Below, piece after piece: positions 14,505-21,693 of a DNA stretch of 64,000 nt (positions are counted from its first letter, which is position 1; each line of letters starts with the position of its first letter). The position numbers were made by a program, and so were the translations under genes. The notes under the pieces were generated by a model, which worked only from the letters and a program-made list of their open reading frames with translations, searched no databases and had not been told where the DNA came from. This stretch comes from Chitinispirillaceae bacterium (GTDB taxonomy: Bacteria > Fibrobacterota > Chitinivibrionia > Chitinivibrionales > Chitinispirillaceae): NCBI GenBank assembly GCA_016929595.1, contig JAFGIN010000049.1:62001-126000 (forward strand). The letters run 5' to 3'.

Positions 14505-14536
14505 AAAAAGAAAAAGCCGCTACAGAACGCAGCGGC
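14505..14536 (-). terminator. Terminator of the fatty-acid/polyketide-like operon
   Basis: A GCCGCT/AGCGGC stem (14516-14521 with 14531-14536) is followed on the minus strand by a T-rich tract. It lies 14 bases after the ACP stop codon and closes the minus-strand operon. Confidence 0.8.
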
Positions 14537-14549
14537 AAAGTTGAAAAAA

Positions 14550-14810
14550 TCAGCTTTTAGCGACGAGATATTTTTCTACGGTATCAGTACACTGATTAAT
14601 AGAGGTGATATTCGGAAATTCGGTTTCTGGAATCGATACTCCGAATTTTTTCTCCATTGTGGCAAGTACTTCAAGCAGAGCCATTGAATCAAGACCCATG
14701 TCACTGACAAATTTCGCATCATCAGTGATAGCTTCTTCATCGATATCCATGTCTTCTGCGATTTCAATAATCATCCCGCGAATAGCTTCTTTGATCTCTT
14801 CTTTGTTCAT
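14550..14810 (-). CDS. Acyl carrier protein
   Basis: This 86-residue acidic protein has the carrier-protein fold and the phosphopantetheine attachment Ser in 'MGLDSMALLEVLATME' (the usual motif is DSL; here it is DSM). It is the last gene of a minus-strand locus with two ketosynthase-type proteins, a dehydratase and a ketoreductase, so it probably serves this locus rather than housekeeping fatty-acid synthesis. The DSM motif supports a specialised ACP. AGGAG lies upstream of the start. Confidence 0.92.
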   Translation of the reverse strand: MNKEEIKEAIRGMIIEIAEDMDIDEEAITDDAKFVSDMGLDSMALLEVLATMEKKFGVSIPETEFPNITSINQCTDTVEKYLVAKS

Positions 14811-14859
14811 TAAAAATGTCTCCTCACATCATTTGAGGTTGTATGGTTAATAGTAGTTT

Positions 14860-16068
14860 TTATTCAACATTCTTTATAAGGACAGCACTGCAGTTTCCAT
14901 CACATGAAACAGAGTTTACAATACAGAATGTGTTGTCTTTTTTGATGGGGGAGAAGACAAGTGGGATACTGTTAAAGCAGGAATAGGAATTACCGATTCC
15001 ACTGATCTGACCGTTTTTGAGATCTGTTATTGCGCATGCAAGGTTCAATGCACCAGATACACCATAACACTCGCCGGTAAATGCTTTGTATGCGGTAACC
15101 GGAACATTTGTATCGAAAACCTTTTTGATCGCGGCAGCTTCAATGCTGTCGGTAAGGCGATTACCACTTGCAGATGATGCAATAAACCCGACATCGTTGG
15201 TTGAAATACCGGCATCATTGCAAACTTCTGAAAGTACGTGTGCGGCTACATCCCCATCTGACTGACCATTTTGAGCAAGAGAGGGATCAAAGGCTGAAGC
15301 TGTGCCAACTACCTCAACAACAGGTGTCCGATTGTTTGTTTTCATTGATTCTTCAGTGTCAAAAAGAAAAAGGGCACATCCCTCACCCGGAACAACTCCA
15401 TCAGCTTCTTTTGAAAACGGCAATCCTTTACCAGTTGAAGAGATCAGACCCGTACGCTGTAATCCTAACATCGAGTAGTAACTTAACTCCTCAAGTCCAC
15501 CTGCAACGATTGCTTCTATATAGCCGCGCTGCATATAATTGAATGCATAGATTAACGCATCAATCCCGGAATTGAAACCTGTAGAAACAGTTGTACTGAG
15601 ATTGCGGGCAACAAACTTGATATTGGTGTTTCCGGTTGGCGAGTTGATAACAGTATTTGCAAACGCCTGCGGATTAACAATGTTAACACCATTTACAATA
15701 GAATCGCTGAGAAAATCGCCGATGCTCTGAACACTTCCAAATGCGGTACCAACACAGATACCTGGCCGGTTGTCATCATCTGTATGTTCCATAATTTCTT
15801 TAAGTCCCTGCTCGAAAGATCCAAGGATCAGTTTGGTCGCATGATCTTTGAGTCGAAGCCCTTTTTTACCGAGAACAGCAACAGGATCGAAACCATTGAC
15901 TGTGATGCAGGATATCGCCGGGTCCAGTGAATGAAACTCAAAATCTTTAAATGCACTTGTTACAGGAGGCTTAGACAGACCCTCTTTGAATGCATTTAAA
16001 CCAATACCAAAGGAACTGATAATTCCTGATGAAGTGATATATATTTTTTTTGAATGCATCGTGCCCAT
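14860..16068 (-). CDS. Ketosynthase-like protein lacking catalytic residues (chain-length-factor-like)
   Basis: This 402-residue protein has the thiolase-fold outline of beta-ketoacyl synthases, but every catalytic residue is replaced. The Cys position in the usual 'STACASG' is Phe165 in 'STGFNSG'; the first His (HGTGT) becomes Ser299 in 'ASSASGN'; the second His (GHT) becomes Glu333 in 'TGECYG'. It therefore cannot act as a standard condensing enzyme. In type II polyketide and aryl-polyene loci such proteins pair with an active ketosynthase and influence chain length. Its ATG directly follows the stop of the active ketosynthase gene, as expected for a heterodimer. Role by analogy only. Confidence 0.85.
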   Translation of the reverse strand: MGTMHSKKIYITSSGIISSFGIGLNAFKEGLSKPPVTSAFKDFEFHSLDPAISCITVNGFDPVAVLGKKGLRLKDHATKLILGSFEQGLKEIMEHTDDDNRPGICVGTAFGSVQSIGDFLSDSIVNGVNIVNPQAFANTVINSPTGNTNIKFVARNLSTTVSTGFNSGIDALIYAFNYMQRGYIEAIVAGGLEELSYYSMLGLQRTGLISSTGKGLPFSKEADGVVPGEGCALFLFDTEESMKTNNRTPVVEVVGTASAFDPSLAQNGQSDGDVAAHVLSEVCNDAGISTNDVGFIASSASGNRLTDSIEAAAIKKVFDTNVPVTAYKAFTGECYGVSGALNLACAITDLKNGQISGIGNSYSCFNSIPLVFSPIKKDNTFCIVNSVSCDGNCSAVLIKNVE

Positions 16069-17295
16069 CTATCCTTTGTATTTCCTGAGTACCAGTGATG
16101 AACAATTGCCGGCAAATGCGTAAGCATTCGAGATAACTGTGTTCAGTTCTTTTTCTTTTGGAATATTTGGAACACAGTCAAGGTCACATTCCGGATCGGG
16201 ATCTTTGTAATTTATTGTGGGTAGCATCACATTATTTTGGATCATCAGAGCACACGCAGCAGCTTCAATAGCAGAGGCTGCGCCCATTGTATGCCCAATC
16301 ATTGATTTAATTGAAGACATTGGGGTCTTGCAGGCATGTTCTTTCAGAATTTCCTTAACTATTAATGTCTCGATCTTATCGTTTTCCACGGTACCGGTTC
16401 CATGCGCACTGATATAATCAATATCTTCCAGAGCAATGCCAGTATTATGGATAGCTTTTTTAAAAGCCATGATTCCACCACTACCTGCAGGGTCTGGAAT
16501 AGTCATTTTATAGGCATCGCATCCAAGACCATATCCAAGAATTTCAGCGTAAATTTTTGCACCACGGGCAAGTGCGTGTTCAAGTCGTTCAAGAATCAGA
16601 ATACCTGCTCCCTCACTCACTGCCATACCATTACGGTTAAGATCAAATGGACGACACACATCGGAGGTAGTTGCTAAAAGCCGATTAAAACCGGTAAACG
16701 CTATTCCTGAAAAAGGATCACTTCCGCCTGAAACTACAACATCAACTTTTCCAAGCTGGATGAGATCGTACCCATACCCGATCGCGTAGTTACCGGCTGC
16801 ACATGCAGTCGGGGTGATAATTATCGGACCTTTGGTTTTGAGTGTACGTGCAACATTTGCTGGAATAGTACCGCAGGGATATTGACGGGGGAGATCTGAT
16901 GGTATATCTGATGCGTCGCCCGTTTTGTATTTGATTTTAACACCTTTTTCAAGAATTTGCGGTTCTCCCATAGTGGTTCCCATACAGACAGCAAACTTGT
17001 AGGGGTTCTCTTCTCCAATGGAAATACCTGCATCTTCTACTGCCATTTTTGCTGCTGATACAGCGAACTGGCTGGAACGTCCCATTCTCTCAATCTCTTC
17101 ATCAGTAAGGTAAGATGAAGGATTGAAATCTAAAACTTCTCCCCCAGTTTTCGTTCTGAATTCTGTTGGATCAAATTGAACCAATGGTCGAACCCCATTT
17201 TTACCAGCAACGGCAGCTTTCCAGAAGGTATCATTGCCAATACCAATTGGGGTTACCAATCCTAACCCGGTAATAACTACTCTATTTTGACTCAT
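16069..17295 (-). CDS. Beta-ketoacyl-ACP synthase II-type ketosynthase (active)
   Basis: This 408-residue condensing enzyme has an intact Cys-His-His triad: the nucleophile in 'TPTACAAGN', the first His in 'SAHGTGT' and the second in 'IGHTMGAA'. It elongates an ACP-bound acyl chain with malonyl-ACP. The length and order fit FabF. It abuts the degenerate ketosynthase gene and follows the dehydratase after 163 AT-rich bases. The presence of dedicated dehydratase and ketoreductase neighbours suggests a specialised pathway. A housekeeping fabF elsewhere in the genome cannot be excluded or shown. Confidence 0.92.
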   Translation of the reverse strand: MSQNRVVITGLGLVTPIGIGNDTFWKAAVAGKNGVRPLVQFDPTEFRTKTGGEVLDFNPSSYLTDEEIERMGRSSQFAVSAAKMAVEDAGISIGEENPYKFAVCMGTTMGEPQILEKGVKIKYKTGDASDIPSDLPRQYPCGTIPANVARTLKTKGPIIITPTACAAGNYAIGYGYDLIQLGKVDVVVSGGSDPFSGIAFTGFNRLLATTSDVCRPFDLNRNGMAVSEGAGILILERLEHALARGAKIYAEILGYGLGCDAYKMTIPDPAGSGGIMAFKKAIHNTGIALEDIDYISAHGTGTVENDKIETLIVKEILKEHACKTPMSSIKSMIGHTMGAASAIEAAACALMIQNNVMLPTINYKDPDPECDLDCVPNIPKEKELNTVISNAYAFAGNCSSLVLRKYKG

Positions 17296-17458
17296 ATCCT
17301 TTTTCTATCCGTACAGGGATTTTTAGTTTTAGCAGATAGGTAAATATAGTTAATAAAAGCAGAAAAAACCAATATTGTTGTACACCAATTGAACAATAAC
17401 ACAAAAAAACAGGTCATTATTCTGGATTATTTACCACTGAAAACGCTCTATATTATTA

Positions 17459-17896
17459 TCAGGATAGACGTTGCATCCCAAAAAGCAATTCGCTTTTAGC
17501 TACGAGGTTTTCATCTACATAAGCCCGGCCCGTAACTGCCATAGTATCACCAAATATTTTATCGACAGTGATCTTTGTAATGAGCTGATCACCAGGGATA
17601 ACCGGTTTTTTGAATGTTGCTTTGTTTACCTTACCAAGGTAGTACACAACATTTTCATCGATCCCGCCGGATGATTTTGAAAACAGGAAGCATGCAGCCT
17701 GAGCCATATTTTCAATGATTAAAACACCTGGCAGAACAGGATTCGCAGGGAAATGTCCCTGAAACTGCGCTTCATTGATAGTAACATTTTTTAATACCGT
17801 TACCGATTCATTGGAAACAAACTCAGTCACACGATCGATCAGTAGAAAGGGAAAACGATGCGGGACATTTTTCATTATTTCTTGAATGTTAAACAT
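17459..17896 (-). CDS. FabZ-like 3-hydroxyacyl-ACP dehydratase
   Basis: This 145-residue hot-dog-fold enzyme has the catalytic His in 'FQGHFPANPVLPG' and the downstream Glu in 'LIIENMAQAA', plus the N-terminal 'VPHRFPFLLIDRV'. It removes water from 3-hydroxyacyl-ACP to make the trans-2-enoyl form. The length is typical of FabZ. It lies 25 bases after the ketoreductase gene, and GGAG precedes its start. No enoyl reductase is seen in the locus, so the product may keep double bonds. Confidence 0.92.
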   Translation of the reverse strand: MFNIQEIMKNVPHRFPFLLIDRVTEFVSNESVTVLKNVTINEAQFQGHFPANPVLPGVLIIENMAQAACFLFSKSSGGIDENVVYYLGKVNKATFKKPVIPGDQLITKITVDKIFGDTMAVTGRAYVDENLVAKSELLFGMQRLS

Positions 17897-17921
17897 GCTA
17901 TTTCTCCGAAAACTTTAAGAA

Positions 17922-18659
17922 TCAGGCTGTTAATCCACCGTCAATCGAAAAGACCTGTCCTGTGATGTATCGTGCTTTTTCTGATGCAAGGAACGAGACA
18001 AGATCTGCAACTTCATCGGCTTTTCCCATTCTCTGCATGGGGATCATTTTTACAAGTTCTGCAAGATGCTTTTCGGGCATAGCCCTGGTCATCTCGGTTT
18101 CAATATAGCCGGGTGCGATACAATTAACGGGTATACCCAACTTGGCCGCCTCTTTGGCCAGTGCTTTGGTGAATCCGATAATACCTGCTTTTGAAGCACA
18201 GTAGTTTGTCTGGCCTGCTATTCCGGAGAGCCCGCTTACTGAAGAGATATTTACAATACATCCGCGCTTATTTTTAAAAAAATAACCAACGATATGGCGT
18301 GTGACGTTAAAATTTCCCGTGAGGTTGGTATTGATCACATCGTTCCACTCTGCCTGTTGCATGATAAAAAGACTGCGATCTTTTGTGATGCCGGCGTTGT
18401 TTACGAGAAGGTCGACATCACCGCCAAGAAACTCTTTTGCCTGAGTTACGAAATTTCCTGCAAACTGAAAATCGGATACATCAGCTTTGAATGCTGCAGC
18501 TTTTGCACCCTTTTCAATCAATGATGCAACGAGTGCCTCAGCCTCATCTTTTCTTGAAGAGTAGTTGAATGCTACATCATACCCTTCAGATGCAAGCTTT
18601 AAAACGATTGCAGCCCCGATACCCCGGGATCCACCTGTGATAATAGCCTTTTTGCTCAC
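17922..18659 (-). CDS. FabG-like 3-oxoacyl-ACP reductase
   Basis: This 245-residue short-chain dehydrogenase has the nucleotide-binding 'GGSRGIGAA', 'NNAG', and the catalytic Ser-Tyr-Lys in '[22 protein letters not shown]'. It reduces the keto group made by the ketosynthase using NADPH. The start is a GTG preceded by AGGAGA. It heads the fabG-fabZ-KS-KS-ACP run on the minus strand. Confidence 0.92.
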
Positions 18660-18991
18660 TCCATTCTCTCCTGACCCGTACCCAATTGTGAGTACTTATG
18701 TTTAGTCGTTATTATAAATGTATAGTTTTGTGACTATTCAGGTAGTATAACCTTTTACCGGTTTTTCGCACCCTAAAATCACCCGTAAGGGAACCTGGAG
18801 AACAAAAATCCCACATATTAGGTCTTAAAGTCCCCCTGCGGGGGATTTTGGGGGAGTACCTAAATAGTCACAATTTCTTACATCAATTTAATCAGCCAGA
18901 TTCTTTTAAGCACAAAGAGACCTGCCAGATTCAGCGTTCAGAACATTAAATTCAAATAAAAGTAATCTTATGAGCACAGGTTCATTGAAGA
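18660..18991. other. Intergenic region with GC-rich hairpin, between exporter pair and fabG-like gene
   Basis: These 332 bases contain a TCCCCC/GGGGGA hairpin (18831-18845) inside a C/G-run block of a kind often dispersed between genes. The region likely holds the promoter of the fabG-to-ACP operon on the minus strand. No gene was recognised. Confidence 0.5.
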
Positions 18992-19423
18992 CTACTTTTT
19001 TCCTTTGGAATTTGGAATAACGTTTTTTTCAACCTTTGGTGTAGTCGTTGAATGGATCTTACAACGGGCCATATCCATCCATTCCGTCGGGACCTGTACG
19101 GAATCTCCATCAACGAGAAAATAGATAGCCTGAGCACTTACCGTATCGGTGCTTTTTGATAGGTATCGGTATTTCATTTCCATAGTTATATCACCGTTTT
19201 TTACCATGGCTGAAAATGTTGAGTCTGTACGTTTGTAGACTCCGTATCCTTTTACACTTTCATCAGAGGTGTTGCCGACCTGAAGAGAATCCTGAGCAAA
19301 AAAAGTTAAAATCAGCCCATCAGATCCAGTGCACCAGGATCCATTGAAGTCTACTGATTTTCCTCCTGAAAAAACCGCAGAAAAGAAACCAGACACCAGC
19401 AGAATAACAGTTAGAATTTTCAT
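18992..19423 (-). CDS. Small secreted protein encoded with the MMPL exporter
   Basis: This 143-residue protein begins with a signal peptide ('ILTVILLVSGFFSAVFSGG'). The mature part starts 'FNGSWCTGSDGLILTFFAQDSL', which resembles small lipocalin-like beta-sandwich proteins ('GxW...dg..l.f'), and the C-terminus is a polar, basic tail. Its start overlaps the stop of the MMPL gene by four bases, so the two are translated together. A role helping the exporter or binding its lipid product is inference. Confidence 0.75.
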   Translation of the reverse strand: MKILTVILLVSGFFSAVFSGGKSVDFNGSWCTGSDGLILTFFAQDSLQVGNTSDESVKGYGVYKRTDSTFSAMVKNGDITMEMKYRYLSKSTDTVSAQAIYFLVDGDSVQVPTEWMDMARCKIHSTTTPKVEKNVIPNSKGKK

Positions 19424-21693
19424 AGAGACTTTCCTTTCGCGTCGATTGCGCTTCCGATTCCAAAATATCTTATAAGAATAGGTAACATCAAGAGTGAAAA
19501 AAATGCACTCACCATCATGGAAATAAATACAAGAACTCCAAAATCCCGCACCGGTGGAAATCCTGAAAAAGCGAGAATCAGAAAACCTATGCCAACAATG
19601 AGGGTGTTGAGCAGTATGGGAGTACCTTTACTGCGAATAGTATCCTGGAGCGCCTGAAACCGGCTGGAGGATCTCTTTCTTGTGTAAATGTATCCGCTGA
19701 CAAAATGTATGGAGTAATCGATTCCGATACCGACACAGGTGTTCATGATGATGACTGTTACCAGATTTATTGTAACTCCCAGAACACCCATCGATGCGTA
19801 TACAAATCCGGTAGCTGCAATGATCGGAATGACAGCAAACACGCCAGTACGTAAAGATCTGAAAAAGAGTATCAGGCATAGTACTACCGGAAGAAATGTA
19901 GTAATGAGACTGCTGATCTGCGTATTGATTAACACCAGTGACATCGCTTCAGTAAGCACGGCCTGTCCGCTGACTACCGCTTCCCATCCTGCACAGGAAT
20001 CCTTAACAAAAAGCTCGATATTTCTGGCAATGGCAGTCGGCTTGATATCAGGATCATTCGTGCAGGTTACACCGATGCGAACCTCTTTTCGGTCTTTACT
20101 TAAGAAGGTTTTGAGCAGGTTGCTGTAATTTTTTCCGAAAATACCACTCGATGAAGTGAGCATCGATACAGCTGGCCTGGAGATCTCTTCACCGGAAAGT
20201 AATTTGCTGACACGTGTCAGAAGCGGCAGTAGTGTGGTGACATTTCCAACACCGTCTAAAGACTCAATATGGGAAGAGATGCGGTTGATTGTTTTCCAAT
20301 CTTCCACAGTACGGATCTCTTCGTTTTTTCGTATGACAGCAGAAAAAAATCTGGTGCCGCCGAAATGCTGTTCGATGAATTTATCCGACTTTCTCAAAAG
20401 GTTCTCTTCAGGCAACATCATAATTGGATTACTTTCAACATGAACCATCCTGAATCCAATGACAAAGAATATTGCAAGAACAGGAACGAGTATAACCCAT
20501 CTTCTGGTTTTAAGAGAAATAGTATCGATGAAATTCCATAACAAACCGAAAAATTTCTCCTCAGGTGGATTCTCAGGGGCAAACGATTTTACGTTCCCGT
20601 GTTCGATCGACAGGAAAATGGGGATAAGCAGAACGTTAAAAATATAGGCACATACAACTGCAATGCCGGTAAACAGACCAAAGATGCTTGTCCAGAGGAT
20701 CGGAGAAAAGACGAAAGAAGCAAATCCGAAAAAGGTGGTCAGTGATGTAAGGAGACAGGGGGTGAGTTGTTCTTTGTAGGTCGAAATCAGAGCCTGTTCA
20801 ATATTTCCCCCATTTTCCCTGTAACGCAGGATGTAGGTCTTAATAATATGAATGGCATCTGCCACACCAATTGGAAAGAGAATAATTGGAATAACTGATG
20901 TAACAACCGAGAATGGTGTATTGGTCAGTCCCATAAGGCCGAATGTCCATATAAGAGCGAATGCATTTACGAGTAATGCAGCGAGGACATACAGGACTCT
21001 GCGGAATATACGGTACAGCAGCAACGCAATTATGAGGAAACAGATCGGAAGAAGCATCTTGAAATCGTGCTTCATCGAGATGTCGGTAATGTAGGAGACC
21101 GCAGCTTCACTGGTGAAATATGCTTTGACGTTACCGAAACGGTTGATTGAATCGGTAAGTGCTGTCATCTCTTTAAAAAAAGATGTTCTGTTAACCGTGT
21201 CTGTGAGATTTATCATCATGCCGAAAACGGTTTCATCATCAGAAACCAGAAGCTGCGTAAACTCCCGGTTTTCCTTGATACGCGCACGTATAATCGTATC
21301 ATTATCAGCATGTTCTCCGGGAATTATGGCAACACTGTTGATCCCGAGAAAACCACCTTTGACTGGCACCTGCATGGTTGAGATGCTTGATACATTTGCG
21401 ACATATTTCAGACTACGGTATTTTTCACTCCAGGCGCTGACCGAGTCCACTTTCTGACTGAGTGTTCCTGATGAAAACTCGAACAGACACAGAACCGATA
21501 TTGAAGTGGTGAACTCTTCTTTTAATTTATCGTATTCGATTTTTTCTTTAAGTGATGCAGGTATCGCCTTATAGGTATCGTTATCTATCTGAATTTTTGT
21601 CAGAAAAAAGCCAAAAAAAAGTGTTGTAAGAATGAGCACAACACTCAGCGGTATGCGATACCTGAGGATGTTTTTAACGAGAAACTCTGCCAT
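19420..21693 (-). CDS. MMPL/RND-family lipid exporter
   Basis: This 757-residue inner-membrane protein has the RND duplication: a helix, a large periplasmic loop, five to six helices (about 210-360), then the same again. 'SVIPIILFPIGVADAIHIIKTY' and 'IMNTCVGIGIDYSIHFVSGY' are the repeated helix-4-like segments; the acidic residues there are the probable proton-relay sites. MMPL/HpnN-type proteins move lipids or lipid-linked products across the envelope. Placement beside a dedicated synthase locus suggests that it exports the product. The 757 residues are shorter than multidrug RND pumps, as expected for this group. Confidence 0.9.
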   Translation of the reverse strand: MAEFLVKNILRYRIPLSVVLILTTLFFGFFLTKIQIDNDTYKAIPASLKEKIEYDKLKEEFTTSISVLCLFEFSSGTLSQKVDSVSAWSEKYRSLKYVANVSSISTMQVPVKGGFLGINSVAIIPGEHADNDTIIRARIKENREFTQLLVSDDETVFGMMINLTDTVNRTSFFKEMTALTDSINRFGNVKAYFTSEAAVSYITDISMKHDFKMLLPICFLIIALLLYRIFRRVLYVLAALLVNAFALIWTFGLMGLTNTPFSVVTSVIPIILFPIGVADAIHIIKTYILRYRENGGNIEQALISTYKEQLTPCLLTSLTTFFGFASFVFSPILWTSIFGLFTGIAVVCAYIFNVLLIPIFLSIEHGNVKSFAPENPPEEKFFGLLWNFIDTISLKTRRWVILVPVLAIFFVIGFRMVHVESNPIMMLPEENLLRKSDKFIEQHFGGTRFFSAVIRKNEEIRTVEDWKTINRISSHIESLDGVGNVTTLLPLLTRVSKLLSGEEISRPAVSMLTSSSGIFGKNYSNLLKTFLSKDRKEVRIGVTCTNDPDIKPTAIARNIELFVKDSCAGWEAVVSGQAVLTEAMSLVLINTQISSLITTFLPVVLCLILFFRSLRTGVFAVIPIIAATGFVYASMGVLGVTINLVTVIIMNTCVGIGIDYSIHFVSGYIYTRKRSSSRFQALQDTIRSKGTPILLNTLIVGIGFLILAFSGFPPVRDFGVLVFISMMVSAFFSLLMLPILIRYFGIGSAIDAKGKSL

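Follow-up and report, generated by a model that had tools for sequence, protein, structure and literature searches.

The closest described systems to the locus reported here are the extended fatty-acid synthesis clusters of Kuenenia stuttgartiensis and Desulfotalea psychrophila. In Kuenenia a "non-canonical FabF", Kuste3606, is among the ladderane candidates, and Rattray proposed that the CrtI-like homologues of both organisms act in desaturation or isomerisation (PMC2649909). When the Kuenenia genes were expressed heterologously, ladderanes were not detected (PMC4790861). Desulfotalea, which carries syntenic clusters, makes polyunsaturated hydrocarbons of the C31:8/C31:9 type and no detected ladderanes (PMC2649909). 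Among non-anammox phyla, Fibrobacterota included, clusters that antiSMASH classes as 'ladderane' are on record as well, and no product is assigned to them in the sections of the survey that list them (PMC9902471).

The window analysed here is a stretch of 64,000 nucleotides from an anaerobic, Chitinispirillaceae-like bacterium of the Fibrobacterota, and the locus within it consists of seven minus-strand ORFs in one small operon. The initial annotation had taken these for a complete mini-pathway with its own exporter, and Pfam and NCBIfam searches confirmed the families of all seven except the small protein. We think it likely that the locus is a reduced and split member of the Kuenenia/Desulfotalea-type family of extended fatty-acid ('ladderane-type') clusters, making an unsaturated chain for an envelope lipid. 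The features are as follows.

14516-14536, minus strand: intrinsic-terminator-like hairpin with T run, a 9-bp stem followed by TTTTTCTTTT, called by a consensus scan alone
14550-14810, minus strand: dedicated acyl carrier protein (ACP), 86 aa, with a GLDSM site (Pfam PP-binding, 2e-12)
14860-16068, minus strand: ketosynthase-like protein (KS-like) of the chain-length-factor (CLF) type, 402 aa, F165/S299/K328/E333 (Pfam ketoacyl-synt N and C; best PDB match 9s5h_C)
16069-17295, minus strand: active ketosynthase (KS), 408 aa, C165/H298/K330/H335 (Pfam ketoacyl-synt N and C; best PDB match 9s5h_B, 52% identity)
17459-17896, minus strand: FabZ-type 3-hydroxyacyl-ACP dehydratase (exceeds the NCBIfam fabZ cut-off)
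17922-18659, minus strand: FabG-type 3-oxoacyl-ACP reductase (TIGR01830, 303 bits, cut-off 298)
18728-18873, no strand assigned: MITE-like repeat, 146 bp, with 17-nt terminal inverted repeats that are 94% complementary
18992-19423, minus strand: small secreted protein, 143 aa, with a signal-like N-terminus
19420-21693, minus strand: MMPL/HAE3-family lipid exporter, 757 aa (Pfam MMPL, 2e-32)

The hairpin sits directly past the ACP stop codon and probably marks the end of the operon. The exporter that had been claimed for the operon is borne out by the MMPL match. Database searching gave an unspecific match for the ACP, whose orthologue comes after KS-like in nearly all relatives, and singled out no Kuenenia enzyme for FabZ. 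The small secreted protein, to which Pfam and NCBIfam assigned no family, is kept after the MMPL gene in relatives. Its model predicts an 8-stranded beta protein (pLDDT 78, about 90 in the core), and avidin- and lipocalin-like folds were among the Foldseek matches, none of them at E<=0.001; a calycin/lipocalin-like fold is weakly suggested.

The pair of ketosynthase proteins is the centre of our reading. An alignment to E. coli FabF shows Cys165, His298, Lys330 and His335 all intact in the KS, and Phe165, Ser299 and Glu333 with a retained Lys328 in KS-like. That KS-like keeps the fold with Cys>Phe165, His>Ser299 and His>Glu333, as first described, is confirmed by this alignment and by an AlphaFold model in which the entire FabF fold is present (pLDDT 86, TM 0.90 to FabF), and its ATG does directly follow the KS stop codon, with zero spacer. 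Orthologues of KS-like occur in 26 of the 40 genomes of the window's order at 38-60% identity, and among the 168 Fibrobacterota genomes searched the clear ones are confined to that order, the named records being Chitinispirillaceae, Chitinivibrionales and 'Fibrobacter sp.' MAGs. Twelve Fibrobacterota copies were tabulated: at the Cys site 11 have Phe and the other Leu, all 12 have Glu in place of the last His, the Lys is retained in 11 and replaced by Arg in one, and each copy is paired with a KS whose catalytic set is intact (12/12). A copy placed in the Myxococcota (L120) has residues identical to those of the window. Since KS-like is conserved so widely in the order, it is not a product of chance decay. 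The alignments support the proposed conserved pair of the KS-CLF type, and by analogy an active KS with a dead, conserved partner is the KS/CLF architecture of 9S5H and of the aryl polyene (APE) and ishigamide pairs. An aromatic type II PKS KS/CLF was also considered and rejected, as Cys>Gln is expected in its CLF and Phe was found, and there is no cyclase at the locus.

A more ordinary explanation would be a duplicate FAS II operon in which KS-like, as a degenerate paralogue of FabF, has no separate role, and FabG and FabZ do score like ordinary FAS II enzymes. However, the KS-like substitutions and the neighbouring residues are conserved across the order, KS-like closely co-occurs with an acyltransferase and a desaturase, and the genome has a separate housekeeping-type FabF on contig C34. 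KS-like does not cluster with FabF, and forcing the two together is rejected (AU p 9e-6). Together, the conservation and the AU test rule out a decaying FabF paralogue, and we hold the duplicate operon to be very improbable.

KS and KS-like share their best PDB match, the entry pair 9S5H/9S5I (466 bits for KS and 171 bits for KS-like), and 9S5I contains an ACP besides the KS chains. The KS is 52% identical to 9s5h_B, 37-39% to FabF and 31-35% to ApeO/ApeR, and KS-like is 35% identical to 9s5h_C. In the alignment the inactive chain 9s5h_C has V163, N298, Y300, G302, K328, E333 and Q342, the same seven residues as the Kuste3606 row in Table 2 of Rattray 2009 (PMC2649909), a match of 7/7 over the residues of that table which the alignment shows. 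Because of this agreement we infer that 9S5H is Kuste3605/3606; a literature search for a paper describing the entry found none. Kuste2805, a further non-canonical protein of Kuenenia, resembles the window's KS-like in having Phe163 and Glu333 (PMC2649909). The KS tree places the window KS with Kuste3605 and the KSs of other anaerobes (support 98/90 and 97/97), apart from FabF and ApeO/ApeR, with two NBC Streptomyces KSs nested within the clade. The KS-like proteins and Kuste3606 do not form one clade in the best tree, and forcing that grouping is not rejected (AU p 0.165). As judged from sequence, the nearest kin of the pair are the Kuenenia/Desulfotalea "ladderane-type" clusters and not the aryl polyenes.

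This kinship bears directly on the undescribed, reduced aryl-polyene variant suggested by the initial annotation. In a rival reading along these lines, KS/CLF, ketoreductase (KR), dehydratase (DH), ACP and MMPL would form a polyene lipid of the outer membrane with a different starter. The locus is indeed reduced, and it has common parts with the set of E. coli CFT073 (MMPL, acyltransferase, KS/CLF, KR, DH, ACP), so that the working principle may be similar. The family assignment did not hold, as the KS is only 31-35% identical to ApeO/ApeR and clusters with Kuste3605, and ApeC has 240 aa as compared to the 402 aa and full fold of KS-like (PMC8358021). AMP ligase and glycosyltransferase (GT2), already reported as missing, are absent from the locus and its immediate neighbours, as are thioesterase and LolA, and neither the CrtI-like desaturases nor the B12-radical-SAM enzymes found in relatives belong to the APE gene set. 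The size of the CLF, the KS tree and the genes that are missing rule out APE membership as such, and a reduced system built along aryl-polyene lines is improbable.

Comparison of gene order shows the gene set retained in relatives; of the two refuting conditions named at the outset, clustering of KS-like with FabF and lack of conservation in related genomes, neither was found. The relatives' operon runs MMPL, secreted protein, radical-SAM, FabG, FabZ, KS, KS-like, ACP, acyltransferase, desaturase(s) and radical-SAM, with local variation. The additions to the window's set are B12-radical-SAM enzymes, CrtI-like desaturases and a lipid-A-type (HtrB-like) acyltransferase, and these further genes rule out a complete stand-alone pathway. 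Within the order the acyltransferase is found in 26/26 genomes with KS-like and 1/14 without, the desaturase in 25/26 and 1/14, MMPL in 22/26 and 0/14, and either radical-SAM enzyme in 23/26 and 0/14; these are raw counts under hand-set thresholds, uncorrected for shared ancestry, in which 'absent' in an incomplete MAG may be a gap. Against NCBIfam TIGR04072 (rSAM_ladder_B12) the relatives' radical-SAM enzymes score 47 and 55 bits and those of a planctomycete MAG (L121) 58-61 bits, below the cut-off of 360. The order in this MAG is ACP-FabZ-KS-KSL-desaturase-rSAM-rSAM-KS-KSL-FabG (KSL, KS-like), which by sequence reads as the content of kuste3603-3608 and then that of 2803-2805. One genome that carries the operon, apparently in a fuller form than the window's (G005, L048), is probably Chitinispirillum alkaliphilum, a cultured anaerobe.

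Several related arrangements were seen in passing. Single-chain fusions of about 1250 aa join a B12-radical-SAM enzyme, an active KS and a dead KS-like domain (Cys>His/Pro, His>Ala, His>Tyr) in the order of genes kuste2803-2804-2805; examples are L097:6357-10112 (-) and L099:5872-9618 (-), similar ORFs occur in many relatives, and none was found in the window's genome. About 20 kb of Desulfobacteraceae SURF_4 (L122:672-20720) holds four genes for active KSs and three for KS-like proteins, with HemN/HutW-like and B12-type radical-SAM genes. Streptomyces plasmids carry ACP-KS-KS-like-FabG cassettes (L129:4661-8139, L130:3699-7186) flanked by tryptophan halogenase and NRPS-type genes, and the KSs of these cassettes nest inside the anaerobe KS clade.

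Neither an enoyl reductase nor an acyltransferase nor a phytoene-desaturase-like FAD enzyme is present at the window locus. The initial annotation was therefore right about the missing acyltransferase as far as the locus goes, but searching the rest of the genome with chosen proteins found an HtrB/LpxL-like orthologue on another contig (G000:C12:30799-31677) and the desaturase orthologue on a third (G000:C182:43129-44544), adjoining the gene of a second CrtI-like protein. Members of the same set thus lie elsewhere in the genome, and the locus on its own is incomplete. Orthologues of the two radical-SAM enzymes were not found in this 95%-complete genome, where the best matches reach 30-34%, and G025 and G027 are likewise without either. 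The slot between the secreted-protein and FabG genes, which holds a radical-SAM gene in relatives, is occupied here by the 146-bp repeat (18728-18873), with ends TTGTGACTATTCAGGTA and TACCTAAATAGTCACAA and about 10 further copies in the genome at 72-81% identity across most of its length. Type I PKS and PKS-NRPS hybrid genes lie on contigs C134 and C199 (L092-L094), other than that of the locus, and additional KS matches on contigs C15 and C182.

Taking the observed genes, substitutions, conservation, co-occurrence and kinship to Kuste3605/3606 together, a route can be sketched. KS and the catalytically dead KS-like would form a heterodimer that acts as a KS/chain-length-factor pair and extends a chain carried by the dedicated ACP, with FabG reducing and FabZ dehydrating each added unit. 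Since the locus lacks an enoyl reductase, the double bonds would stay in the chain and give a polyunsaturated product. The unsaturated chain suggested at the outset is supported as the simplest product of FabG and FabZ under these circumstances, though a housekeeping enoyl reductase could act and the product is to that extent our inference. By analogy with the role proposed by Rattray, the two CrtI-like FAD enzymes on C182 may desaturate or isomerise the chain and so probably adjust its double bonds. The HtrB/LpxL-like acyltransferase on C12 would then transfer the chain from the ACP to an envelope lipid, and MMPL with the small secreted beta protein would convey this lipid to the outer membrane; acyltransferase and exporter together suggest an envelope lipid. 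In the relatives the B12-radical-SAM enzymes would modify the chain, and as these are missing here the product of the window's organism is probably the unmodified unsaturated chain.

That the window's genome, G025 and G027 all lack the radical-SAM enzymes would also fit long polyunsaturated hydrocarbon or fatty-acid chains of the C31:8/C31:9 type, stored or membrane-bound, with no rings and no dedicated envelope lipid, as the products and syntenic clusters of Desulfotalea might lead one to expect. The acyltransferase and MMPL point instead to an esterified envelope lipid, and the link between cluster and hydrocarbon in Desulfotalea is correlative only, so we consider such a product unlikely while keeping it in view. 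True cyclobutane ladderanes could be expected from the kinship of KS and KS-like and from the B12-radical-SAM and CrtI-like enzymes of the relatives, but the radical-SAM orthologues were not found in the window's genome, and ladderanes are known solely from anammox bacteria (PMC2649909 and the relevant sections of PMC9902471). The published PLFA profile of C. alkaliphilum has as main acids ai15:0, 16:0, 14:0 and i16:0, which are ordinary saturated or branched acids, and lists no ladderanes. Given this profile, of a strain that is probably G005, the major phospholipid chains are unlikely to include a ladderane under the profiled conditions, though a minor or lipid-A-bound one may occur, and ladderane synthesis by this locus is most improbable. 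The literature on Chitinispirillum pigments held nothing bearing on the cluster.

We thus return to our main reading, that the locus is a reduced and split form of an orphan cluster family already known, here in another and partly cultured lineage. Ladderane-type clusters in Fibrobacterota have already been reported, as the listing in PMC9902471 shows. A bolder and rather doubtful extension is that the envelope lipids of Chitinispirillaceae and related Fibrobacterota include an undescribed class whose acyl chain, either polyunsaturated or carbocyclic, comes from a ladderane-cluster-type KS/KS-like pair, with HtrB-like esterification and MMPL export; the window's genome would be a natural radical-SAM-minus version of this system, ending at the uncyclised chain. 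The pair, which is conserved across the order and seems to occur in a cultured anaerobe, offers a tractable route to ladderane-type products outside anammox, and because the B12-radical-SAM enzymes are found in some natural versions but not in others, the radical-SAM step is isolable.

Compared with known systems, the locus is most like kuste3603-3608 of Kuenenia (PMC2649909, PMC4790861) and 9S5H/9S5I, with an ACP, a FabZ and a KS adjoining a KS-like protein that has lost the Cys and both His, kept the Lys and gained a Glu. Kuenenia also shares CrtI-like desaturase and radical-SAM partners with the relatives of the window's genome, and an Mmp-like transport protein was reported by Rattray for the wider Kuenenia and Desulfotalea clusters (PMC2649909). 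Unlike Kuenenia, the window operon includes FabG and MMPL, the desaturases and HtrB-like acyltransferase lie elsewhere in a genome without a radical-SAM orthologue, KS-like is only 35% identical to 9s5h_C, and the phylum is another. Desulfotalea psychrophila, which we liken through its published description (PMC2649909), is similarly an anaerobe outside the anammox group that has ladderane-type genes but is not known to contain ladderanes; it makes polyunsaturated hydrocarbons, and no acyltransferase is described for its extended FASII clusters. The aryl polyene clusters (E. coli CFT073) follow a like logic of KS/CLF, KR, DH, ACP, MMPL and acyltransferase, but have a half-size CLF, a KS of another clade, and AMP ligase, GT, LolA and thioesterase. 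Actinobacterial KS/CLF pairs (the S. camelliae type II PKS; NBC_01351 and NBC_01243 beside NRPS genes) also have a dead KS partner, although with Cys>Gln or Ser/Ala and no FabZ, MMPL or desaturase context seen; the NBC pairs share the 'LGxKGxR' stretch of KS-like and have KSs that belong to the window KS clade. The antiSMASH 'ladderane' clusters of Fibrobacterota MAGs from the Cariaco Basin (PMC9902471) have the same phylum and predicted cluster class, and beyond what those sections report we describe here the operon layout, the conservation of KS-like and the loss of the radical-SAM enzymes.
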